The notes under the pieces are model-generated. The model ran no database searches, was not told where the DNA came from, and saw only the letters and a list, made by a program, of their open reading frames with translations. 64,000 bases of DNA from Aurantiochytrium sp. KH105 (taxonomy: Eukaryota > Sar > Bigyra > Thraustochytrida > Thraustochytriidae): positions 62,001 through 126,000 of the forward strand of contig BGKB01000130.1 in NCBI GenBank assembly GCA_003116975.1, given 5' to 3'. The position numbers and the translations under genes are program-made. This document shows, in pieces, positions 24,073-48,797 of this stretch (positions are counted from its first letter, which is position 1; every line of letters begins with the position of its first letter).

Positions 24073-25016
24073 CTTTTCAGTCCCTTTCGTACGTTCGTGA
24101 TGATGTCGCGGGGACCGCAAGCAAGCACGCAAGTTAGCAAGCAAGCAAGCAAGCAAGCGGGCAAGTTTGCTCGCACGCACGCACCCACGCGCGTACGCAA
24201 GACGAGGCGAGGCGAGGTGAGGCAACACGCAGACCCCTTTTGAGAATTGCTCGCCAGGTCGCTAGTTCGCCCGTTCGCCCGGACATCGAAGAGATGGGAA
24301 AGCACGTGCACAAGCCAAGTGGGAAGGGGTGAAAAGTAACTAGTTCAGAGCTAGTGCTCAAACTATAATCCCCGTGCTTAGGACTACACGCGCGTGCAAG
24401 CAGCGCTCTCCAGGCAAACCACTGTCCGCGCAGCCGTGGCGTCGCCGCGTGGTATCCCGTACCGTCGCGCGGAGCGAGTCTGCCGCGCCGCGCGCGAGCC
24501 CCCCGCCGCGGCGGCGCTCGAGAGGCCTCCGCCGCGCAGTCTCGCGCGGGTGTCGTCGGTCGGCACCGCCTCGCGAGGCCCGGCCTGCGCGTGGGCCCAG
24601 GCGCAAGGAAAGAAAGAAATCGAAATCCCGCGCCTCATCTCGCCCCCGACAACCCCGCTCGGCCCCGCGCGGCCCCGCGCGGCTCCGCTCGGCCCCGCCC
24701 GGGCCAGCCCGGCCGGGCCCCGTCTGCGGCGGAGGAGACCCGCGGGAGCCCTTGCTCGCGCGGCCGCTGCGGGTGCGCGGAGAGAGGTAGGTGCTCGCGG
24801 CGTCTCGCCGCGTTCGCGCCCTCGGCGCTGCTGCTGCTCGACAAAAGAAGTCGAAGCAAGAAGTGACTAGCCAGGAGTCGGGCCGCGGCCGGGGAAGAAG
24901 AAGGCGCCGCACGCTGCGGCGGCGCCATCATCTTCGTCGTTGTCTTCGTCGTCCGTCATTGAAGACGACGATTGCACTTACAGCACGTACGTGCGGCGTC
25001 GCGAATCGACGAAATC
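24073..25016. promoter_or_regulatory. Divergent upstream region with an extreme GC block
   Basis: About 940 bases between the duplicated small protein (-) and the LRR/ARM/SPRY gene (+). It contains (GCAA)n at 24136-24159 and a very GC-rich block at about 24440-24790 with GGCCCCGC-like units. Long open frames on both strands here are GC artefacts. It likely holds both promoters. Confidence 0.5.
24136..24159. repeat. (GCAA)n microsatellite
   Basis: Five to six GCAA units in the leader of the minus-strand gene, flanked by related GCAAGTT and GCACGCAC sequence. Confidence 0.8.
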
Positions 25017-28000
25017 ATGGTGAAAACAAATCAGCTCGTCTGTGCGCCCAAGACACTTCCTCGTCGCGGGAGCTTCAAAATATCGCCAAAACTCCGCCTT
25101 CGAAGATCAACCTCGAGTGCGCACACCGGGGAGCGTGCAAACGTAGATCCAAAGTCGCCTCAGCAACACGTCTTCCGAAGAAAATTCTCTTTTCGCCGAT
25201 CAGGCACAAGCGCATCCTCCGAAAGCGTTCGCAAGGACGAGTTTTATGAAGGCGATGCGAGCAGCGATGATGGGTATATGGACTCCCCTCGATCCTCCAT
25301 GCGCCAAATTGATACAAGGCCGAACGGTTCCTCGTCATCATCAAGGCCAAATGGGTCTTCATCCTCGTCCAAATTAAATGTCTTGGGAAGCAAACTGAAG
25401 CGGAGTATTAGCAAGCGGTCAAAATCATCACAGAACGAGTCGGAAGGACCTGAGCAACGAGACAATCCCGACGACGATGTACAAGTAGAAGTTGAAGAAG
25501 AAGAGGGTGTAGTAGTCGTTGAAGAAGAAGAGGACAACGACGATGAAAGAAGACGGCATGGTGATATGAAAGACAAAGAAACTTCCGCGGCCTCGACAGA
25601 CGGCGTGCAAGCCCTCACACAGGCCTCAGAGTCTATTGAGGATGCTGAGAAGCGAGAAGGGGAGCGCGCCGAACAGCGTCGTAGTGCCGAGTCTTCCAAG
25701 AGACGCTCGCTTCGAGACGCCATCGACGAGACGCTCGAGTATGACCAGCTTCCCAGCGAGCTCGCCTTCGAAGAAGAAGTAAGCAATCACGCAGAGGACG
25801 TCGCACTCGCAGTCAACGGAGAAGATGTAAACGATGGATTCGCTCGTCAACGCCGGCGTCCCTCCGATAAACGGTACCTCCGGCGGCGCAGCAGCTGCTA
25901 CAAGGTTTTTAATGTTGTCGAGGCCGTCTTCTTGCACGACGATTCCTCGCTCGCGCACTGTGTAACCTCCTTTCTTTCTGTTCGTCAGCACGTGGGCCTC
26001 GCTCAGGTCTCCCGTGCGCTGCTCGAAACTGTGCGCGAGGTGCCTCTTCGTCTTGATTACAGCAAACGCGTCGTGGACCCTCAACTTTTGGAAAGTGTGT
26101 TTGGTCCACGTTCCCGCAATTCGCGCGCAACGTCATGGCGTGTTGCAGGCCTTTACTCGAGTATCTCTGACTTGCGCACCCTTTTCAACGTCATTGATCC
26201 TGGCGACCTCGAGTTCATTGGTCTTGTCAACCCACGTGTGCGATCACTCGAACCAATGCGCGCATGTACGAAACTTATGCGCTTCGAGCTTCACGGGTGC
26301 GAATCCGCGCTGAGTCTCGAACCGCTTTTGGACCTTGCTCCAACGCTTCGAGGTCTTTCTCTGCTTGCATGTCGACAGATTGAGGATGTCAGTATCGCGG
26401 AGCACCTTCCGGAGCTACGCATGCTATCAATCTTTAGGTCATCACGGATCAAGAACCTTCCCGAATTTGCACGCTCCAGTCAGCTCGAGTTTCTCAGCGC
26501 TGGCGAATGCGCTGATCTCGCCTCCATGGATCCAATTCGCTGTCTCAATCACCTCCGCGTTCTCGATCTATCGCACGTGCGCTCAGTCACGTCGCTCGAG
26601 CATCTTCGTTCTGCCTCGCAACTCCGCGTACTCATTCTGGATCGCTGCGTCAATCTGACCTCGCTCCAAGGGCTCGAGTGCTGCAATGCACTCGAGGTTC
26701 TTCGCTTGAACTTTATCTCCGAGCTACCGTCTCTGTGCGGTCTCGAGCATTGTCCAAACCTGACCTCGCTCGAACTCACGGGCCTCCGGAACATTGAAGA
26801 CCTTTCGCCGCTCGCAGAGTGTGAGAAGCTCGAGGATCTACTGTTGCTCAAGTGCTCCAAAGTAGTATCCTTGGGACCTCTCCGGAGTCTTACGCGGTCG
26901 ATGCGGCGTCTGATCATCTCGGGGTGCCAGCGTCTACAGAGCGAAGACGATGCTGGTGTAATCGAAGCCTGCACGCGTCTTATTGTCTTTGAATGCGCCG
27001 CGTGTCATCCTGGTCTGCTTATTAGTCTCATGAACTGCACGCGTCCCACGATTCTGGCTGCTGCAGAGCGGGAACTTCCTGTTCTATCGCAGTACGACTT
27101 TGAGACCGCGGCTCTTCCCGAGGTCAAGCGCCGCCTCTCTGCGGACGCTAATGCCAACGACAAGAGGGCGGCTCTGCGCGTTATTCAAGCGTGCAGTGCC
27201 AACAATCTCATGCTCTCTGCCATGGTCCGCGAAGATGTCGTCGAAGCGCTCGTTTCTTCTCTGTTTTCGGCGGAAGAATGCGCCGAGGTTGACGAAACGT
27301 GCTCGGAGCAATCGCAGGAAATGGATTGTGGTGGCGACGCCCATCGAGCGGCTGCATCCATGCGGTCACGCGACTACGTTGTTGAGGCCCTGCGCGCCCT
27401 CGGCGCCCTTATCAAGGACACAGAGTCGTCGAGACGCGTCCTTGGAGTTGCGCTGTCCGTGGAGCACATTGCTGGGCTCATTTTCGTGCCGGAGGATCTC
27501 GTCGAGGCCCGCGAAGAACTCAAGGGCGACCTTCTTGTTCCTTCGGGAACCCTTCTCGATGAGGAAAAGTGTACCGCGGAGGCCGCCCGCGTGCTGGCGC
27601 GTGTGCTTCAGCACACCCCGGCTTCGGGCCGATCGGCCCTTTCGTCGCGCATCATCGAAACAAATGCACCGCTCGTTGCCGTTGACATGATGTCAGCTTG
27701 CTCCATGGACCGCACTCGTCGTCCCCTCATCGTCTTTCTCAACACGCTCCTCGATGCAAACTGTGTCAGTTCGGCGATGCGAGAAAACCTTGCGCATGAT
27801 CTGCTCGAGGTCGGTCTCGTCGACGCTCTCCTCGCGACAAGCGAATTTGCTTCCATCGAGACGCAGATGCTCACGGTGGCTCTTCTTGCATCCGTCAGCA
27901 AAGCAGGCGATGCTGGAGTTGTTTTAATCAAGGCGCTTTGTAAGCGTAGTGGGTCATTTGATCGACTCGTGGCTCTCTTGAACAGCTCGGAAGATCGCGA

Positions 28001-31000
28001 GGTTCTTCGATCAATTGTGCAGGTGTTGCTGCAGACGCCAGTTGAGTGTACACGCACGGTTGCTCAGACGCCCAAGCTGCTCACAAGCCTTATGGCTTGC
28101 ATGCAGCGCGAGCTGCACTACGAGGATCATGCTCACTTTTCTTCGCAAAGCGAAGCCTCACTCCTTCTACTCACAATTCAATTCATGGGCGTCCTCGCGC
28201 GGCATCATGAGAGTGCATGTGTTATGATCTCAGAGGAGGCGAGCACGAGTGCGGGCGTGCGGTCTGCTCGTTCTCGCGCAGCCCCGCCATCGCGCTGCAG
28301 CCTTCCGAGCTGCCAGATTGTGAGAGAGCTCCATGGCGTCATCCTGAATGGCCCTTATGTGACTCGCATTGCATGCGCCCGGGTTCTCGTGGACCTTGCG
28401 CGTGCTTCGCAACGTTTCAAAGTCGCTCTCGTGGATTCCTTCAAGCATAGCAAGGGGCTCAAGGACCTCTTTATGCTCGCTGCGCAAGGCGCTTCGTCGA
28501 CTTCGGATGTTATGGCTGGTCTCGATCTCCTGCTCATATTGCTGGAGGAGCCAGGCGTCGCCGATCTTGGTGCGAGGTTTAGCACCGTTCAAGCAAGTGG
28601 TTTTACCCAAGGTCTCGTACGCCTCGCGCTGATGGCACGCACGCAAGACCATGTCGACGCCGTCGCGCGTGCGCTGGCCTTGATGCTCGCGTCAAGATCA
28701 CAGCGTCTGATCCATGATGGGGTGATTGTCTCTTTGGTTGGCAAGGTGCAGACGATGAACATTCACATTCAAACCCACATGCCCTGGGTGCTATCGCGCA
28801 GTCGACGGCGCTCTTCTCCAAGTCGCATGAACGCCTCGGCAAGGAACAGAGGTACTGAGCGAGCTGCTGCTCTCCGCATGCTGGTGGCGCTCATCGACCT
28901 CGGAAGGGCCGAGGACGTGGTAAAAACACTCGGCAACCTGCGGGTCTTCGACCATCTGGCGGCGAGTCTGGTCGACGATGACCATGCTTGCCGTGAGCTC
29001 GCTGTTCGGCTGCTCGAAGTGACAATGCAAATCTGTGATGATCAGAGCGACTGCGCGCGCGGGCAAAAGCAATCGGCGTCAATCCAGAAGCTCTTCATAC
29101 AGAGCATTGTTCGAAATCCGCTTTTGCCTCGCTTCCCTTCCTTGGTTCTGCAGGCCTTAATCGAACTTCTTGCCTCGGGGAGCTCCAAGGCCAGAGTCTC
29201 GAGTGCTCGCGTGCTGGCCATGGCTATTTCCCGCTGTGAAGATGTATGCCATGCATTGCTCGGCTCCCAGGAACACCTCTCCTTTGAACAGCAGGAGGCG
29301 CATCGAAGGAGCCGAGGAAGTGCAGGAAGCCGTGCGAGTTTGACCCTGAGCGGGCTGCGCTCCCTGCACAATGCAGGACCCGAGAGTCCTCAAGATGGAA
29401 GCGACAAGGAAAGCGATGACGAGGGTCAAATCTCGTGCCATGGAAGTACTGACGATGACGACGACGATGACGACAACGACATCGCCGATCCGAGAAACTA
29501 TTCTTCGAATATGCACGCATCATTGACTTCGCACAGCAGAGCGGAGCGAATGATGTCGACCGAGTTCGTGGACGAGCATCACGCGCTCCCACCTCCTCCC
29601 CCGCTAGCGCGACGTTCCTCTCGATGGAGCAGCGACTTCACCTTGGGTGGGCCGGAGATGAGCTTTCTCAGGCTTCATGTTGCTGGCGCTCAAAGGCAGA
29701 GATCACGTAAACAACAAGACTACAGGCGCGAGGTGGAGGAGGAGGCGGAGGACGAAGAACGGCATTGCGGCAGCGACGGCACGGAGGCCCGCGAGGAGGA
29801 CACGGAACAAGGCATGGGTGCCGTTGCGCATCGGGACCGGAAGGGAGGCATGTGCGCTGAGGCGCGGCCTGCTCCTCTTGTCACAACAGACAACGTAGCC
29901 CTCGATGAAGACGGAGACAATATATTCATTGCACTTCGGGTGCTTCTTATGGAGCCGTGCCTTCCTAGTAGACGGTCCGTCTCGATGGCAAAGGATGGCC
30001 TTGTGGAGGTTAGTGTTGCAGGTGGTTTGACCGATTCATGGGAGCACACCGTCGAAGACATGGGGCGGGGAACTACCTGGAGTTCTCTCTCTGCATGTGA
30101 AGCTGCGCCGCAGCCCCTTGCTGAGGAAGTCGAGGCTGGTTGTGAGCTTGTCGAGGCGCTCATCAAGGCTGACGCTTCGCGAGTCCGTACTTTAGTGCTT
30201 CAGCCCGTCGTGGACGCGCTGTGCAAACCTGACGAGGGAGCAGACCAATCCCGTGCAGTTGAGGTACTGCTAGGTCTGAGTTCCAAGGATACGTGTGAGC
30301 CCCTGGTGGCTGCTCTCGTCGACCTCGAGGCTTTTTCGGCGTTGGCCATCTATCTTTGCTCATCTGCGCTTGCTGCAGACACACGACTTCGAGGTTATAA
30401 GGCGCTCGCTGCCTTTGTCCATGGACGAAGTGACCGGCTGCTTGTGCTGGACGAGCACGCGCCCTTGCTCAAGAGTATTGTGGATAAGGTACTGGTGGGC
30501 GATGTTGATCTTTACGCATCATTCGTGGACTTGCTTGGGTCTCTGCGAAATCCGGATGAAGCTGACTTTATTGAACTTTGCGCAAGGTTTGCCGAAGCCG
30601 GGCTAGCAGATGGACTCAAACGGTGGCAGACGCGTCTGGCTGAAGGGGGCGCCTCGCGAGCCCGTTGCCGCGCCGAGGTGGATCTGGGCCGTGCTCTACT
30701 CGTTCCAGCACTGCACGGTTCCACTGCCGTGCTGGATGCCGACTCTATCGCCGATCTAGAAGACTTAGTGTCAGGTCTCTTTGCTTCGGATGAGCGCCTC
30801 GAGTTGCGAATCGCATACGGTCGTCTTCTGGGAACTCTTGACCCCGGATTTCTTGATGATGCATCGGAGGTCTTTGGCGGTACCGTTGCGCAGGGCCAAA
30901 CCTTTAGGGATCTCTCAATGCAGGAGCGCTTGTATGAGGCCGAACAACTTCGGTCGTACCATGTGGTGTTCCAGAGAGTTCGCGGATTCCCGGTCGTGTT

Positions 31001-31505
31001 TTCGCATGAAGAGATTTTCTCTATCCGTGTGCAAGAGTGGACAACATTCGCAATTCAGTCGCCGGTGGGGCGAGTGGGGCGAAACCACACGCTTTTAACG
31101 CTCAGCCACCGTCGCGTTTACTACGAGGTGGAGCTCCTCGATGAATTTGATCCGGAAACACTTGTTGGCTGGGTATCGAACCTTTTTCAAAGCGGAGTTA
31201 TCCTCGGCTATACAGCCGGAGGTGTGAGCGAAGATCCGGAGAGCTGGGGTCTTCGTCTCGGCGATCTCTTTAGCCCCAAGGACGTGCTTGGCGTTGCGGC
31301 CGACCTGGACGCGCAGATGCTTGTCTTTACTCGAAACGGCAAAACATTCGGACACACAATCAAATTACCCGGTGGTATTGACGCTGTCTTTCCTGCCGTG
31401 ACAACGAGTGATCTGCACGCATTCTTCAATTTCGGATCTCGCCCGTTCCGCTTTTCGGCACCGTCTCGCGGTTACCGTTCCGTTTTCCGTTCTGTCAATG
31501 TGTAA
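25017..31505 (+). CDS. Giant LRR - ARM/HEAT-like - SPRY protein
   Basis: 2162 residues from ATG 25017 (MVKTNQLV); an ATG at 24972 would add 15 residues. Order: a disordered Ser/Arg and Glu/Asp-rich N-terminus (about 1-280); an F-box-like helical stretch (about 300-370, SFLSVRQHVGLAQVSRALLE); a leucine-rich-repeat block (about 404-644) with repeating L..L.L..C..L..L/I units such as LRVLDLSHVRSVTSLEHL; a long helical region (about 690-1950) with ARM/HEAT character (VVEALRALGALIKD, LLVALIDLGRAEDVVKTLGN) interrupted by an acidic, low-complexity loop (about 1460-1640). A C-terminal SPRY domain (about 1998-2158) is marked by YYEVELL, VLGVAADLDAQMLVFTRNGK and FNFGSRPFRF. LRR, ARM and SPRY are protein-interaction modules, so a scaffold or substrate-adaptor role, perhaps in ubiquitylation if the F-box is real, is inference. 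No catalytic motif is seen. Confidence 0.85.
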   Translation: MVKTNQLVCAPKTLPRRGSFKISPKLRLRRSTSSAHTGERANVDPKSPQQHVFRRKFSFRRSGTSASSESVRKDEFYEGDASSDDGYMDSPRSSMRQIDTRPNGSSSSSRPNGSSSSSKLNVLGSKLKRSISKRSKSSQNESEGPEQRDNPDDDVQVEVEEEEGVVVVEEEEDNDDERRRHGDMKDKETSAASTDGVQALTQASESIEDAEKREGERAEQRRSAESSKRRSLRDAIDETLEYDQLPSELAFEEEVSNHAEDVALAVNGEDVNDGFARQRRRPSDKRYLRRRSSCYKVFNVVEAVFLHDDSSLAHCVTSFLSVRQHVGLAQVSRALLETVREVPLRLDYSKRVVDPQLLESVFGPRSRNSRATSWRVAGLYSSISDLRTLFNVIDPGDLEFIGLVNPRVRSLEPMRACTKLMRFELHGCESALSLEPLLDLAPTLRGLSLLACRQIEDVSIAEHLPELRMLSIFRSSRIKNLPEFARSSQLEFLSAGECADLASMDPIRCLNHLRVLDLSHVRSVTSLEHLRSASQLRVLILDRCVNLTSLQGLECCNALEVLRLNFISELPSLCGLEHCPNLTSLELTGLRNIEDLSPLAECEKLEDLLLLKCSKVVSLGPLRSLTRSMRRLIISGCQRLQSEDDAGVIEACTRLIVFECAACHPGLLISLMNCTRPTILAAAERELPVLSQYDFETAALPEVKRRLSADANANDKRAALRVIQACSANNLMLSAMVREDVVEALVSSLFSAEECAEVDETCSEQSQEMDCGGDAHRAAASMRSRDYVVEALRALGALIKDTESSRRVLGVALSVEHIAGLIFVPEDLVEAREELKGDLLVPSGTLLDEEKCTAEAARVLARVLQHTPASGRSALSSRIIETNAPLVAVDMMSACSMDRTRRPLIVFLNTLLDANCVSSAMRENLAHDLLEVGLVDALLATSEFASIETQMLTVALLASVSKAGDAGVVLIKALCKRSGSFDRLVALLNSSEDREVLRSIVQVLLQTPVECTRTVAQTPKLLTSLMACMQRELHYEDHAHFSSQSEASLLLLTIQFMGVLARHHESACVMISEEASTSAGVRSARSRAAPPSRCSLPSCQIVRELHGVILNGPYVTRIACARVLVDLARASQRFKVALVDSFKHSKGLKDLFMLAAQGASSTSDVMAGLDLLLILLEEPGVADLGARFSTVQASGFTQGLVRLALMARTQDHVDAVARALALMLASRSQRLIHDGVIVSLVGKVQTMNIHIQTHMPWVLSRSRRRSSPSRMNASARNRGTERAAALRMLVALIDLGRAEDVVKTLGNLRVFDHLAASLVDDDHACRELAVRLLEVTMQICDDQSDCARGQKQSASIQKLFIQSIVRNPLLPRFPSLVLQALIELLASGSSKARVSSARVLAMAISRCEDVCHALLGSQEHLSFEQQEAHRRSRGSAGSRASLTLSGLRSLHNAGPESPQDGSDKESDDEGQISCHGSTDDDDDDDDNDIADPRNYSSNMHASLTSHSRAERMMSTEFVDEHHALPPPPPLARRSSRWSSDFTLGGPEMSFLRLHVAGAQRQRSRKQQDYRREVEEEAEDEERHCGSDGTEAREEDTEQGMGAVAHRDRKGGMCAEARPAPLVTTDNVALDEDGDNIFIALRVLLMEPCLPSRRSVSMAKDGLVEVSVAGGLTDSWEHTVEDMGRGTTWSSLSACEAAPQPLAEEVEAGCELVEALIKADASRVRTLVLQPVVDALCKPDEGADQSRAVEVLLGLSSKDTCEPLVAALVDLEAFSALAIYLCSSALAADTRLRGYKALAAFVHGRSDRLLVLDEHAPLLKSIVDKVLVGDVDLYASFVDLLGSLRNPDEADFIELCARFAEAGLADGLKRWQTRLAEGGASRARCRAEVDLGRALLVPALHGSTAVLDADSIADLEDLVSGLFASDERLELRIAYGRLLGTLDPGFLDDASEVFGGTVAQGQTFRDLSMQERLYEAEQLRSYHVVFQRVRGFPVVFSHEEIFSIRVQEWTTFAIQSPVGRVGRNHTLLTLSHRRVYYEVELLDEFDPETLVGWVSNLFQSGVILGYTAGGVSEDPESWGLRLGDLFSPKDVLGVAADLDAQMLVFTRNGKTFGHTIKLPGGIDAVFPAVTTSDLHAFFNFGSRPFRFSAPSRGYRSVFRSVNV

Positions 31506-31724: not shown

Positions 31725-33272
31725 TCAACGAAGCGTTTTGACGAAAAGCGCAGTCTCTGGGTCGCGCTCGATGTACCCCGTGCCATCATCAGTTACAGAA
31801 AGAACTTCGCCGTTCATTGCAATGTAGACGCCAGGCTTTGTCAAGCTCCATACGGCTCCGATTGCCGTTCCGATGTTGAACAAAGCGTCAGAGTTACGAA
31901 ACTTATACGGGCGAAGTGCACCTGTGAGCACGATATAGACGTCATCAAGACCGAGAGATGCGAGCTCATCGCGCAAGAACTCGGCCGTCTCGATGAGCGT
32001 ATCCGTGCCATGCGTTACAATCACCCTTTTTGCCTCAACACGCTGGATTTCATTGGCAATAGCGAGACGATCCCCTTGCGAGATGTCCTGACTGTCCTTG
32101 CGGCACACGCTCGCAATTGCATACGAAAAAGCGGCAAGCGCATTGATCTCGCGCAAATCGCGCAAAATATTATGAATCGCTGGCTCACCGATCTCGAATG
32201 CGTAGCCACCCGACAGGCGAGGATAGTCTTTGTCAATGGTGCCACCCGTGGTGACAAAGAGCACGCCTGGGTGGTGTTCGGCGTCTTCGAGTCCTGCGCG
32301 TGGTGCAAAGCTCCCTTGCGTTGTGTGCGTGAACGCGCTTCTCGCGCTTGCCAACGCTGCAGTTCGAGGCGTGCCCCAGGCGCCATCTGACACAGATGGG
32401 CGCGGTGTTCTAAAATTTTCACTCCAAACGCTGCTACTGCTGCTAGTGCCCAGGCCATCATAGGTTTGCGAACGAGATGATGGCTTCAGCATGCCGCTTG
32501 CGCGACGTGCGGCAGTGCTCTCTAGTTCCGGAGACACAAGGTTCATAACGTCGACCAAAGCAGGAAGACGGACGCAGTGTTGCGACTTGGCAAACTCGCG
32601 CACTTCTTGCACAGCATCGCTGAGCCCGATAAAGTATCGGTGGTGCACCCACAGAGCGCAGACCGCGGCCGTGCGGACTTGCCCTGATGCGCAACAAATG
32701 AGGATATTCTCGCCTGCGCGATCGGCCTCAGTCAGTGCTGTCAGGATCTCAGCGCACGCCTTTTTCTGCTGCAACGAAGGCACATGGTCCACACGCTTCA
32801 CGCGCTGGTCATCGCGCAATTCGTCAAGCAGAGAGACGCCCTCTCCAACAAAACGTGCAAGTTCGCCATCCGAAAGGAGTACCAAGAAGCGCTCAATCTT
32901 GCTTTTGCCATCGACTACACCATCGATCCACTCGCGCACGCTCTTTGCGGAGACGCCTTCGATCCACGAGGATTCGGGTCTCCGCTCAGGCTGGCCAGCG
33001 GCCTTTCCCTTTGCCGCCAACGAGTTCGCATCGTCGTCCTCTAGCTCGGTGTTCTGAATGGCCGTTGTAGTTGTAGTAGTCTGAGTCACGTTGCGACGCG
33101 GACGCGACGGCCCTGACGCAGGGCGTGGGCCTCCCGGAGCTGCAGCGGCCCAGACGCGGTCGTCGCGTCCGCTGGCGGGCGCAAGGTTGGACGCTGCTGC
33201 TACAGCAACGTCTGCATCGTCGCGAGGGGTCGTGTCTCTCGCGCCCGCGTCGTCGCCCTGCCAGACCTCCAT
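31725..33272 (-). CDS. Fusion of a PTP/dual-specificity-phosphatase-like domain with an asparaginase N-domain
   Basis: 515 residues, single exon. After a disordered N-terminus (about 1-95), residues about 100-250 resemble a dual-specificity phosphatase. A hydrophobic strand leads into a CX5R loop (ILICCASGQVRTA, nucleophile near residue 193), then an alpha helix and GLSDAVQEVREF. A Ser/Thr/Pro-rich linker follows. Residues about 337-515 match the N-terminal domain of L-asparaginase/GatD-type amidohydrolases, with both catalytic signatures: VTTGGTIDKDY and VTHGTDTLIETAEFL, then LTGALRPYKFRNSDALFN and a GVYIAMNGEVL strand. The usual C-terminal asparaginase domain is absent; the protein stops soon after. 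Whether it hydrolyses Asn or Gln amides, dephosphorylates a substrate, or does both is unknown. The 5' end is divergent from the SPX-MFS gene. Confidence 0.85.
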   Translation of the reverse strand: MEVWQGDDAGARDTTPRDDADVAVAAASNLAPASGRDDRVWAAAAPGGPRPASGPSRPRRNVTQTTTTTTAIQNTELEDDDANSLAAKGKAAGQPERRPESSWIEGVSAKSVREWIDGVVDGKSKIERFLVLLSDGELARFVGEGVSLLDELRDDQRVKRVDHVPSLQQKKACAEILTALTEADRAGENILICCASGQVRTAAVCALWVHHRYFIGLSDAVQEVREFAKSQHCVRLPALVDVMNLVSPELESTAARRASGMLKPSSRSQTYDGLGTSSSSSVWSENFRTPRPSVSDGAWGTPRTAALASARSAFTHTTQGSFAPRAGLEDAEHHPGVLFVTTGGTIDKDYPRLSGGYAFEIGEPAIHNILRDLREINALAAFSYAIASVCRKDSQDISQGDRLAIANEIQRVEAKRVIVTHGTDTLIETAEFLRDELASLGLDDVYIVLTGALRPYKFRNSDALFNIGTAIGAVWSLTKPGVYIAMNGEVLSVTDDGTGYIERDPETALFVKTLR

Positions 33273-44380: not shown

Positions 44381-44755
44381 CCAACAAAGACAACCTCGCC
44401 CAGTCAGCCCCTCCCCCCCATTCAGCTCCCCGTTCAGCCCCCTAACATTTCCTCCTGTTCGCTCGCTTGCTCGCTCGCTTGCTTGCTTGAGGGCCCCGTC
44501 TATGCTATGCTGTGCTATACTGTAGGTACCGCCGGGAAAAACCCGCCCCGATTCACTGTCACTGCCAGTCTCAAGTCGGCGTCGCCAGTAGGCCTAACTC
44601 GTAGGCCTCCCGCTAAAACCAACCACGACCTACGTATACATAACCACGCCATCTTTGCGTTGCGCTCGTTCATTCATTCCTGCATTCTCGCCCTCGCGCA
44701 CCCGCGCCGCCGCGCCCGCGCGCCGCCGCGCCCGCCCGCCCGCTCGCTCGCGCCA

Positions 44756-44829
44756 NNNNNNNNNNNNNNNNNNNNNNNNNNNNNNNNNNNNNNNNNNNNN
44801 NNNNNNNNNNNNNNNNNNNNNNNNNNNNN
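44756..44829. other. Assembly gap (74 N)
   Basis: A run of undetermined bases between extremely GC-rich repeats, consistent with a sequencing or assembly failure. Its true length is unknown. Confidence 0.99.
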
Positions 44830-44881
44830 CCCGCCGCCGCTCCCGCCGCCGCTCCCGCCGCCGCTCCCGCCGCCGCTCCCG
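44830..44881. repeat. 12-base tandem repeat CCCGCCGCCGCT
   Basis: Four copies and a partial, directly after the gap. In the frame of the following gene they read Pro-Ala-Ala-Ala units, so they may be coding if the true start lies in or before the gap. Confidence 0.9.
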
Positions 44882-44907
44882 CGCGCGCGCGGCCTCCGCG
44901 CGCGGGC

Positions 44908-46968
44908 ATGGAGGCGAGGCCCCTCGCGCGGGCCGCGCTCGGCGCCGCCCGGGCCGGCGACAAGCGACGGCGGCTGGGCGAGCTCGGCGACGGCGACGGG
45001 CGCGCCCCGCGCGGGGTCCACAGGGGCGTCGAGGAGGACGAGGAGGACGAGGAGGAGGACCACCTTGTTCTGGGCGGGGCGAGCCCGCGCGAGCTCGCAG
45101 ACGCCGAGGGGAATATTCTCGAGGAGGAGCGCATGCACATGGGCGGCGACGACGACGACGACGATGTCCGCGACGATGGGAATGACGACAACGGCGACGA
45201 CGACGATGATGACAATAGTGACGACAATAATGATGACAATGTCATCCACCACCGACATCTCATGAGTGATGCACGCGGTCATCATCATCCTCACCACGAT
45301 GAAGGGCGTCACTCCCCCCGACACCCAGACGATGTGGTGCACCGGAGTAGGCAGAGGTCTCACGACGTACGTCGTTCTCATGATGAAAAGATGAATCGCG
45401 GCGGGAGCGCGCTCGATCCTCGAGATAGAGTCATGGTTCATCATCACCACCAGCATCAGCATCAACATCAGATCCAGTCGCATCAGCATCAACATCAACA
45501 TCAGATCCAGTCGCATCAACACCAACATCAGCATCAGCTTCCGCTCCAGCATCATCAACATGCGCAGCAGCAGCATCACCAAATTACCCACCAGCATCAT
45601 CAACAACAACATTCACACCAGCAGCATCACCAATACGGCGACCAGGACCGTGTCCAGGATGATGAAGATGAAGATGATGGTGAAGATAACGACGACGATG
45701 CGAACGACTCTGTCGAGATACATGGACAACATCTGGCTGATGACCCCGGGCGAGGGCGGGCTGGTCACAGTGGTAACGTGAACGGCCATCCCGCAGATGA
45801 GGATGAGGCGGCAGCTGCCGAGGCCGAAGCAGAGCACGAGGCAGCCGCTGCCGCGGCAACGGCGGTTCACCACTCGGTCAATGCCTCGCATGATCATCGG
45901 GTTCCTGCTCATATGGCAGACCTCGATCTCCCGGACGGCGCCGCAGTCGCAGCCGCCCATGCCGCGCGAGAGCATGAAATGCTTAACGCCCGACTGCTCG
46001 ATTCTTCGCGCGTACGCTCTCGCAAGAGGGTGTGCCAATATATATACTGCACACGAATCGCGCGAGGCGCAAGTCAACTATGCATCAAGCATGGAGGCGG
46101 ACGGCGATGCCAATTCGAAGGCTGTGATCGCGGCGCCGAATCGGGTACGCCACAGTTTTGTAAGGCTCATGGCGGCGGGCGGCGCTGCGAGATCGACGAC
46201 TGCGACAAGGCGGCGCGTGGAGGATCCAAAGTTTGCATCATCCATGGCGGCGGTAGAAGGTGCACTGTCGACGGCTGCACGCATGCTGCCGTGGGTCGCA
46301 CCAAACATTGCATCGCCCACGGAGGAGGGAAGCGCTGTCAGTACCCCGACGGCTGCAATAAGGCCGCGCAAACGCCTGGTAATATGTGCAAAGCCCACGG
46401 AGGAGGTCGCCGCTGCCAGCATCCTGGCTGCATTCGTAGCGCCGAGGGCGGGACTGCGGCAGGAAGCCACCATCTTTGCAAAGCGCATGGCGGAGGTCGA
46501 CGCTGCAGTATCGAGGGCTGCAATCGCTCTGCGCCTGGGAGCAAGGCCTTTTGCCGCCACCATGGTGGCGGAAAGACCTGCATCGTTCCGGGGTGCAACA
46601 AGGCGTCTCGTGGTCATTCCGAACATTGCATTGCTCATGGAGGCGGAAAGCGTTGCCATCACATGAACTGCACCAAGGCTGCAGTCTCTCCGACTGATTT
46701 TTGTGTGGCCCATGGAGGCGGAAGGCGGTGTCAAATTAGAAATTGTACCAAGGCGGCGCGGGGTGGCTCTGATCTTTGCCGGAGTCATGGTATCCGGCCT
46801 CGTTCTGCGACCGATTCCGATCGCGATTTCGGTGACCTTGTCCCTCATCTTGACCTTGGTCATGCCACGCAGCCTCCTTCGCATTTGCTACATGATAATC
46901 ATGGAATGCAAGTTGTCGACCATCATGACATTGGAGGCCCCGGTGCAGATCCCTTGGCTTTGGGCTAG
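44908..46968 (+). CDS. HGGGRRC (WRKY19-like) zinc-finger array protein with His/Gln-rich region, ten fingers
   Basis: 686 residues from the first ATG after the gap; the frame stays open upstream to the gap, so the N-terminus may be longer. Order: a GC-encoded Ala/Arg start; long Asp/Glu and Asn/Asp runs; a His/Gln-rich block (about 175-250) built from HQHQHQ and IQSHQHQ units; an acidic/Ala-rich stretch; then ten consecutive fingers (about 375-635). Each has the form C-x4-5-C, about ten residues, C-x2-H, then GGG(R/K)(R/K). Examples are CQFEGCDRGA...FCKAHGGGRRC and CIVPGCNKAS...HCIAHGGGKRC. These fingers are abundant in stramenopile proteins annotated as WRKY19-like and are thought to bind zinc and nucleic acid; no real WRKY domain is present. 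A nuclear regulatory role is inferred. A paralogue follows on the same strand 560 bases downstream. Confidence 0.85.
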   Translation: MEARPLARAALGAARAGDKRRRLGELGDGDGRAPRGVHRGVEEDEEDEEEDHLVLGGASPRELADAEGNILEEERMHMGGDDDDDDVRDDGNDDNGDDDDDDNSDDNNDDNVIHHRHLMSDARGHHHPHHDEGRHSPRHPDDVVHRSRQRSHDVRRSHDEKMNRGGSALDPRDRVMVHHHHQHQHQHQIQSHQHQHQHQIQSHQHQHQHQLPLQHHQHAQQQHHQITHQHHQQQHSHQQHHQYGDQDRVQDDEDEDDGEDNDDDANDSVEIHGQHLADDPGRGRAGHSGNVNGHPADEDEAAAAEAEAEHEAAAAAATAVHHSVNASHDHRVPAHMADLDLPDGAAVAAAHAAREHEMLNARLLDSSRVRSRKRVCQYIYCTRIARGASQLCIKHGGGRRCQFEGCDRGAESGTPQFCKAHGGGRRCEIDDCDKAARGGSKVCIIHGGGRRCTVDGCTHAAVGRTKHCIAHGGGKRCQYPDGCNKAAQTPGNMCKAHGGGRRCQHPGCIRSAEGGTAAGSHHLCKAHGGGRRCSIEGCNRSAPGSKAFCRHHGGGKTCIVPGCNKASRGHSEHCIAHGGGKRCHHMNCTKAAVSPTDFCVAHGGGRRCQIRNCTKAARGGSDLCRSHGIRPRSATDSDRDFGDLVPHLDLGHATQPPSHLLHDNHGMQVVDHHDIGGPGADPLALG

Positions 46969-47528
46969 GCTAAACAAACACCTTTGAAAAGAGTAGTATA
47001 CCAAGGCCTCAGGCTCGCTCCGCCCGGTCCATAATATGAGTATCTTATTGAGTATCAATCATCCAAATCTATCGCCTTGTCTTGTCAGCAGTCCCAAACT
47101 AGCCCTGGAACTGTCAGACGGTAAAGAGGCGACTCATGTCAACTCGTGAACCTTGGTCTGGGCCTATATTATTCCCTCCCTCCCTGACCTTGACTCGGCC
47201 CTTACTACGACTTTACCTTGCGTTACGACTACACTTGCACCTGAACTTCCGCTCCCGATGAAAATCATTTCATGAAAAAAAAAAATGAAAATTGAAAGAA
47301 TGAATCGAAATGAAAGAAAGAAAGAAGGGAGGCCGCGGCGTGCACGCGTTGTTGCGAGCTCGCTGCGTGCGTCACTTTGCGGCGCCATGCAAAGACCAAC
47401 TCAGGAGATGCGCGCACGGCGCGGTACATGCTTGGAGAGGTGCTTTGCGGGCCATAAGGTCGAGGAGGATACTTAGTTCGCAAAAGCCAGCGACATAGAA
47501 AAAAGAAAATCAGGCACGCCGCGGCGCC
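46969..47528. other. Intergenic region between the two zinc-finger genes
   Basis: 560 bases with short A-rich and GAAA-rich stretches near 47275-47330 before the second gene. No additional gene seen. Confidence 0.6.
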
Positions 47529-48797
47529 ATGGCGGACAACGCGTTGGTAAGGAGCCAAAGCGTACAAAGCGCACCACTTTCAAGAAGGGAGGTAGAAGAC
47601 ACGGATGAAGGGCATCAGGGCGGGTCGAAAAGACCCCGAGATGCTCTCGATGATATCCTCTTACAAGGCCAAGACTTTATTTTTGGGCGATCTACACACG
47701 AAAGTCGTCCTGACGGCAACATTCTTGATTTAGAAGACTCGTTCAAGACTAGTATCGCCCATGAAGAGCACGACAACTTTGCAAGCAAGATTAGCAGCAC
47801 ACAGGAGGAGGATGACTTTGCTAGCGCGAGTGCACCTGATCATGATCTTGATCTAGCAGGAGCATTTCAGGTTGATCAGAGTGCATTAGCAGACCGTGAA
47901 CAAGACATGGTATCAACGAGGAATCGCAGGGTGCAGCGACGATGTATTTTTCCAGGTGGATGCTCTTCACAGGCTCGTGATTGTCGCACAATGTTATGCT
48001 TCGCTCACGGTGGCGGGCGCATGTGCGCTGTTGAGGGTTGTTCGCGACAGGCAGTGCGCGCAAGGCCCTCTGCAACCCGTCCTGGGCTGTGCAAAAGGCA
48101 CGGAGGCGGGCACAGATGCGTGGTCGAAGGCTGCAAGACGGCCGCACGGGCAGGCAAAAAATATTGTCGAAAACACCAAAAGGAGCAGCCGGAGGTTTAC
48201 TCCGGTCTACCAGAGCAGCGGCCAACCTGCTCGGACGAAAGTGGATGCTCAAAGTTTTCGCAGCATGGAACACCCTTTTGCATTGGGCACTTTCGCTTTG
48301 TACCTTGCGTTGAGAACCTCTGCACGGAACGCGCTCCAATGCGCAGCGATGGAAATCATCGTTGCCATTTGCACGGAGGCGCCTACCCGCGCTCTCAACA
48401 GTCTTGGGCTGCAAGCCAGCGCAAGATGTTGGCGTGGCGAGCTCGTTCATCATTAAAACAAGGCAAAGAGCAGTCTAGGGACTTAAATCCTGCCATGATT
48501 CCAGCATCTTCTTCGTTTCCTTCGTCAGAAGCTTCGTCATTATCCACGTCCAAACGCAGGAGACTCTGTGGCGTCGAAGATTGCACACGACAGGCTCGGG
48601 ATAAGACTTCCATGCGATGCATTCGTCATGGTGGCGGTAAACGATGCCAGGAACACGGGTGCCCCAATTCTGCTCTGGGCGGCTTCAATAAATGTGCGGC
48701 ACATGGCGCTGGAAAACGCTGTGCGGCACCAAATTGCAGCAAACTTTCGCGTCCTTCCGCCTCCTTTTGCGCTTTGCATCTTTCGGTGAAAACCTAA
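47529..48797 (+). CDS. HGGGRRC (WRKY19-like) zinc-finger protein, eight fingers in two groups
   Basis: 422 residues from ATG 47529 (MADNALVRSQ). A disordered acidic N-terminus (about 1-130) is followed by five finger units (about 138-285): CIFPGGCSSQ, CAVEGCSRQA, CVVEGCKTAA, a divergent CSDESGCSKF and CVENLCTERA. A Ser-rich basic linker (about 290-340) precedes three more fingers (about 345-418): CGVEDCTRQA, CQEHGCPNSA and CAAPNCSKLS. Several fingers keep HGGG(R/K); others have lost the GGG (KHQKE, GHFRF, LHLSV). Compared with its upstream neighbour it lacks the His/Gln block and its fingers are more divergent. The pair probably arose by an old tandem duplication (inference). Likely nucleic-acid binding. 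Confidence 0.85.
   Translation: MADNALVRSQSVQSAPLSRREVEDTDEGHQGGSKRPRDALDDILLQGQDFIFGRSTHESRPDGNILDLEDSFKTSIAHEEHDNFASKISSTQEEDDFASASAPDHDLDLAGAFQVDQSALADREQDMVSTRNRRVQRRCIFPGGCSSQARDCRTMLCFAHGGGRMCAVEGCSRQAVRARPSATRPGLCKRHGGGHRCVVEGCKTAARAGKKYCRKHQKEQPEVYSGLPEQRPTCSDESGCSKFSQHGTPFCIGHFRFVPCVENLCTERAPMRSDGNHRCHLHGGAYPRSQQSWAASQRKMLAWRARSSLKQGKEQSRDLNPAMIPASSSFPSSEASSLSTSKRRRLCGVEDCTRQARDKTSMRCIRHGGGKRCQEHGCPNSALGGFNKCAAHGAGKRCAAPNCSKLSRPSASFCALHLSVKT

Follow-up and report, generated by a model that had tools for sequence, protein, structure and literature searches.

The window, by which we mean the whole 64,000-nucleotide stretch of Aurantiochytrium sp. KH105 DNA analysed here, carries on its minus strand a frame that runs without interruption from position 33272 to position 31725 and encodes 515 amino acids followed by a stop. 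Delimited from stop to stop, this frame opens with an ATG directly preceded by an in-frame TAA; from the base composition, about 1.5e-5 open frames of 515 codons would be expected by chance in all six reading frames of 64 kb. The window also contains genes of eukaryotic type, encoding an SPX-MFS transporter, a RhoGEF-PH protein, CFAP61 and EBP2, which identify its DNA as eukaryotic, as well as genes for a trypsin-PAN protein and CTP synthase. On the plus strand, an open frame of 2180 residues (24963-31505) encodes leucine-rich repeats and a C-terminal SPRY domain, and two adjoining frames (44644-46968 and 47499-48797) match a WRKY19 zinc-finger model, with eight matching stretches in the first.

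The 515-residue product (31725-33272, minus strand, as for all features below) is composed of four segments. An Ala/Thr/Pro-rich N-terminal tail (residues 1-94; 32991-33272), which has no Pfam match and is weakly coding over codons 41-120, precedes a DSP/PTP-like domain (residues ~104-245; 32538-32963) delimited by Pfam DSPc, a CDKN3-like profile and Foldseek. A Ser-rich linker (residues 256-329; 32286-32507), predicted to be disordered with pLDDT values below 50 for nearly all of residues 207-332, then leads into a short-chain asparaginase domain (residues 337-511; 31740-32264), defined by Pfam PF00710, the Rhodospirillum rubrum asparaginase RrA (8uoo) and Foldseek. An earlier note on this DNA, made from the sequence alone, had described two domains sharing one uninterrupted frame, a CCASGQVRT loop (residues 193-201), both asparaginase threonine signatures (TTGGTID, residues 341-347, and THGTDT, residues 420-425), a Ser-rich linker between the domains and a missing asparaginase C-terminal domain, and the analysis bears out each of these points. 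No C-terminal asparaginase domain follows the N-domain in the frame, which stops at 31725, and the next gene in the 3' direction lies convergently on the opposite strand, ending at 31505; the intervening 219 bases are too few for the second domain of an asparaginase of 300-400 residues.

A codon-usage score, trained on three frames nearby and computed in 40-codon blocks across all six frames, ranked the fusion frame best in every block of codons 121-280 and 321-480, with a margin over the opposite strand of just 0.01-0.02 per codon for codons 161-240. Block 281-320, within the linker, scored -0.17, lower than other frames. The linker is thus an open frame whose coding status lacks independent support.

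Residues 337-492 match the Pfam asparaginase N-terminal domain (PF00710) with an E-value of 2.3e-22. In sequence searches of the PDB, the eight best matches to this half are all RrA entries (E 3.3e-24, for 8uoo, to 4.2e-23), and asparaginases other than RrA begin at E 1e-9. An AlphaFold model of the domain, based on an alignment of 57 of 80 loci, has pLDDT block means of 79-97 except at the first residues, and the top 25 Foldseek matches, among the best 50 of 1485, are all RrA chains. NCBIfam models for class 1 asparaginases score far under threshold (best score 57.2 bits against a cut-off of 314.3). RrA is the prototype of the active single-domain "short-chain asparaginases" (scASNases) described in 2024, tetramers whose chains complete one another's active sites (PMC10949315). 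The earlier note had regarded a lone N-domain as anomalous; the match to the RrA family removes the anomaly, since RrA enzymes are active with a single domain, the query nests among scASNases in phylogenetic trees, and absence of the C-domain is therefore a trait of the family. The query shares with RrA its predicted fold and an N-domain without a C-domain. It differs from RrA, and from the stand-alone chains of 160-180 residues that characterize scASNases, in being a 515-residue fused protein in which a domain of ~175 residues sits behind another domain, and in occurring in a eukaryote. Class 1 asparaginases of types I and II, and GatD, have an N-domain homologous to that of the query but carry further domains. 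Thraustochytrids, a stramenopile group, are reported to possess separate type I asparaginases of 371-382 residues (PMC7641610).

Conservation of the asparaginase active site was assessed against 84 relatives and, for most positions, in a wider alignment of 104 rows. Thr345 (32238-32240) corresponds to the RrA nucleophile Thr16 and is Thr in 82 of the 84 relatives. Lys348 and Tyr350, in the Lys348-Asp349-Tyr350 segment (32223-32231), correspond to RrA Lys19, a residue special to the family, and Tyr21 (84/84 and 83/84, respectively; 94/104 each in the wider set), which lie on a hairpin that completes the site of the neighbouring chain (PMC10949315). Asp393-Ser394 (32091-32096) align with the substrate-binding Asp57-Ser58 of RrA (PMC10949315), which are present in all 84 relatives and in 103 and 104 of the 104 wider rows, and Thr423-Asp424 (32001-32006) align with Thr87-Asp88 (84/84 and 83/84; 104/104 and 92/104). 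These seven positions are thus all kept in the query. The exception is Arg503 (CGC; 31764-31766), which replaces the catalytic Lys158 of RrA, a lysine in 83 of the 84 relatives and in 104 of 111. The substitution K158M reduces RrA activity to 0.0% (PMC10949315, Table 3), and the same source rates Lys158 as just moderately conserved across scASNases. A one-base sequencing slip was excluded as the origin of the change by the CGC codon, which is more than one base away from a Lys codon, and by the presence of Arg in two relatives. Asn26 of RrA, which together with Tyr21 from one chain completes the site of another chain (PMC10949315), is aligned with Gly355, within a stretch in which Asn is not the rule among the 84 relatives either. 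Compared with these relatives, the query contains five extra residues (496-500) ahead of Arg503 and further insertions near residues 374-378 and 436-441.

The 84 relatives comprise the best 80 of at least 494 prokaryotic matches and four short plasmid genes; matches occurred in 52 plasmid records, of which eight were used, half with short genes and half with long ones. In every one of the 84, the frame ends 154-182 codons past the start of the match, which leaves no room for a C-domain in any of them. Several show open frames upstream in GC-rich DNA, but each of the four plasmid copies with annotation stands alone as a gene. On a 93-row tree, for which the program flagged long branches and unsettled bootstrap values, the query falls on the scASNase side of a branch with 98/84 support, apart from eight rows labelled as class 1, four of them long asparaginases from plasmids and four of them viral stretches, the latter labelled irrespective of a C-domain.

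To this set we added relatives found in genomes of the same phylum (Patescibacteria) and class as L024, a metagenome-assembled genome of Candidatus Saccharibacteria (18 of 379 genomes at E ≤ 1e-15; 8 of 392 at E ≤ 1e-22). The second tree, with 24 of the 84 earlier rows and with five partial rows left out, places the query in an eight-row clade (support 99/96) together with L001 (from the haloarchaeon Halalkalicoccus), L024, L146, L147, L166, L167 and L168. The query is 46-53% identical to the six Saccharibacteria-like rows of this clade in the genome searches and 42-48% by tblastn. Searches of the order and class around L146 added no relative, the single match among 7 and among 45 genomes being L146, which sits on a contig of 3,936 bases, so that its bin may be wrong. 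The Lys158 column is variable within the clade, with Arg in L146 and L166, Phe in L024, Lys in L147 and L001, and Asn in L167 and L168, both of which have shortened ends that make the alignment there unsure. Given the Arg common to L146 and L166, the Lys-to-Arg change probably predates the fusion. Taken as a whole, the placement suggests that the asparaginase domain was gained from bacteria of a Saccharibacteria-like lineage, a direction that we infer as the simplest reading of the tree.

Some bacterial scASNases present features of their own. Six rows from the phylum of L024 (L151, L152, L153, L158, L164 and L170) form a separate scASNase-like clade (support 100/99) and are possibly non-enzymatic relatives; in the wider alignment, Ser replaces Lys19 in 6 of 104 rows and Tyr replaces Asp88 in 7 of 104, and L170 has both changes. 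In genome G598 (L175:2196-4509), the scASNase gene L147 starts 11 bases past the stop of gatA (NCBIfam E 8.9e-184), with gatC (1.8e-24) upstream on the same strand, and may supply ammonia or recycle asparagine for tRNA amidation; a GatA-like gene lies near one of 111 scASNase genes. On a Parasedimentitalea plasmid (L004:2950-4878), a scASNase gene is directly followed by one for aspartate ammonia-lyase, an arrangement that fits breakdown of asparagine to fumarate.

The N-terminal half had been called PTP/DSP-type in the earlier note, an assignment upheld by several lines of evidence. Pfam DSPc matches residues 175-227 with an E-value of 8.7e-4 in the whole protein and of 1.3e-4 with the domain alone, the latter at 22.3 bits and hence under the gathering score of 33.5, and a DUSP-like tRNA-phosphatase model ranks second (E 0.046); the CDKN3 Pfam model itself gives no match. 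A CDKN3-like profile, built from 12 of 20 loci (eight minus-strand loci were left out) and the L106 sequence (identical to L107), scores 21.0 bits, whereas 2000 shuffles of this half reach 7.3 at most. A PDB sequence search at E-values up to 5 returned 17 sequences, of which 14 are phosphatases (E 0.004-0.05 for the foremost, with Tk-PTP and ShufPTP at the top) and the other three are viral glycoproteins (E ~2). The predicted structure (pLDDT 70.9, pTM 0.67) adopts a PTP fold, and its 12 Foldseek matches in the PDB at E ≤ 1e-3, among the best 50 of 792, are all PTP, DSP or KAP chains. The alignment behind this model includes six viral CDKN3-like rows, which may favour that fold; they represent 6 of 10 viral loci, the other four repeating the aligned region of L127 or L132. 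An earlier model without DSP rows has a similar helix-strand order; its pLDDT averages 44-71 per block for residues 110-199 and stays under 50 beyond residue 206. By sequence profile and predicted fold, the phosphatase half is a remote member of the DSP family. It resembles CDKN3/KAP-like and atypical DSPs (PF05706 and PF00782; Tk-PTP, ShufPTP, DUSP28, KAP) in its CX5R loop, its alpha/beta order and these remote profile and fold matches, but differs from them in having Cys in place of His, a shortened acid loop and an Asp that is not placed.

The P-loop CCASGQVRT (residues 193-201; 32670-32696) contains the presumptive nucleophile Cys194 and Arg200, and thus an intact CX5R, and its Cys, Gly and Arg columns are invariant across the query and ten viral rows. 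The His that precedes the catalytic Cys in PTPs is Cys193 in the query, so that HC has become CC, as had been noted before. Alanine occupies this position in 4 of 12 bacterial CDKN3-like loci. Replacement of the His by Phe in DUSP3 lowers kcat/KM 19-fold (cited in PMC5679558), and the natural His-to-Tyr change of DUSP28 is described as not the main cause of its low activity (PMC5679558). The general-acid Asp column is filled in all 11 bacterial rows and in all ten viral rows (six of them distinct), whereas the query, whose acid loop is short, has a gap there in both HMMER and MAFFT alignments. By inspection, Asp162 (32787-32789), at a plausible spacing of 32 residues before Cys194, is the sole nearby candidate for a general acid. 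Ser166 was considered as a replaced general acid and tentatively set aside, as the viral relatives are suggestive of Asp162. Searched with the phosphatase half, plasmids, phages and viral contigs yielded no match, and 22 scASNase-holding genomes yielded chance-level matches only (9 of 22 at E-values up to 1, best 0.04). Separately, the Anaerolineales genome that contains L011 encodes a CDKN3-like phosphatase domain (PF05706, E 8.3e-19) within an 802-codon frame (L106:1351-1815).

Among 120 prokaryotic loci, which cover 111 distinct scASNase genes and include nine stretches retrieved a second time, no PTP was found fused to or neighbouring a scASNase gene within the DNA covered (CDKN3-like profile, E 0.01). 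Three scans of viral contigs yielded no asparaginase-phosphatase fusion; six viral asparaginase matches are distant (23-33% identity), and the four placed in the tree fall outside the scASNases. PHROGs and PADLOC gave no match. The claim of the earlier note that no described protein has this pairing stands for the open-licence papers searched, among which, judged by their listings, none concerns a PTP-asparaginase fusion. A partial parallel is PTP-NADK (PF22741), which by its Pfam description joins a DSP-type domain to a small-molecule enzyme, NAD kinase. Its enzyme partner is different and the query has no match to PF22741, so the parallel is one of analogy only. Both halves of the query belong to known families; what looks new is their pairing, together with a scASNase subclade poor in the catalytic lysine.

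The explanation that we favour, tentatively, is that a transferred scASNase domain behind a DSP-like domain binds asparagine or aspartate, is weakly active or inactive as an asparaginase and is tied to a regulatory or vestigial phosphatase. A scASNase domain of the Saccharibacteria-like clade would have been gained by gene transfer and joined behind the DSP-like domain. It very likely folds and oligomerizes like RrA, with the Lys348/Tyr350 hairpin completing the site of a neighbouring chain, and the safest expectation is that such an oligomer would bind L-Asn or L-Asp. By analogy with RrA only, a domain with Arg503 in place of the catalytic Lys probably hydrolyses asparagine weakly or not at all. 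Since its signature is altered and a general acid is not evident, although the CX5R loop is preserved, the DSP-like half is likelier to be a weak phosphatase or a phospho-binding module than a strong enzyme. More speculatively, joining the two halves might couple phospho-signalling to the level of asparagine or aspartate, or direct the oligomer towards a phosphoprotein. Several points weigh against parts of this explanation: Arg may substitute for a lysine that is itself rated moderately conserved (PMC10949315), the change from HC to CC is not necessarily fatal to a phosphatase (as DUSP28 and the Ala in 4 of 12 bacterial loci indicate), Asp162 could be the acid, the neighbour-lent Asn26 of RrA is aligned with Gly355, and L146 may be mis-binned.

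One alternative is a bifunctional enzyme, in which Arg503 takes the place of Lys in asparagine hydrolysis, the DSP half uses Asp162 or another acid, and nitrogen metabolism is coupled to signalling. The seven other active-site positions that are kept, the intact CX5R, the location of Asp162 32 residues ahead of the Cys and the occurrence in two bacterial relatives of an Arg that may therefore be functional all agree with this possibility, which we nonetheless regard as rather unlikely, since RrA K158M is dead (PMC10949315), the Asp column filled in 11 bacterial and ten viral rows (six distinct) is a gap in the query, and the DSP match lies under the Pfam threshold. At the opposite end, the fusion could be nominal, with the DSP-like half a decayed remnant and the protein working through its scASNase half alone. 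That half's altered signature residues, its modest model confidence and its remoteness from all relatives found, with plasmids, phages and viral contigs giving no match, would be expected of such a remnant, yet the frame remains open across the DSP with weakly coding-like codon use and the loop Cys, Gly and Arg are kept; we regard this account as unlikely. Still less probable is that a metabolite-gated phosphatase or phospho-reader resides here, in which a Lys-less asparaginase fold senses Asn or Asp and the tetramer state controls the PTP-like domain. Finally, the gene model itself might mislead, either because two adjacent genes give rise to separate transcripts or because an intron alters the linker. 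The lack of coding signal over linker codons 281-320 and a Met at residue 261 within the linker would accommodate this, but 515 codons follow one another without a stop on one strand and in one frame, and, short of splicing, a first gene would lack a stop codon, so that we deem an artefact very improbable.

The frequent replacement of the catalytic lysine in the subclade raises the question of whether its members use Arg to hydrolyse asparagine or are confined to binding it. If the metabolite-gated reading were true, it would link amino-acid supply with phospho-signalling in a protist. The founding paper on scASNases describes the family from bacteria, and its main text does not contain the string 'eukaryot' (PMC10949315). 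The results presented here now place a short-chain asparaginase in a eukaryote. Should the fusion be expressed, it would combine the folds of an amino-acid enzyme and a phosphatase in a new pairing.
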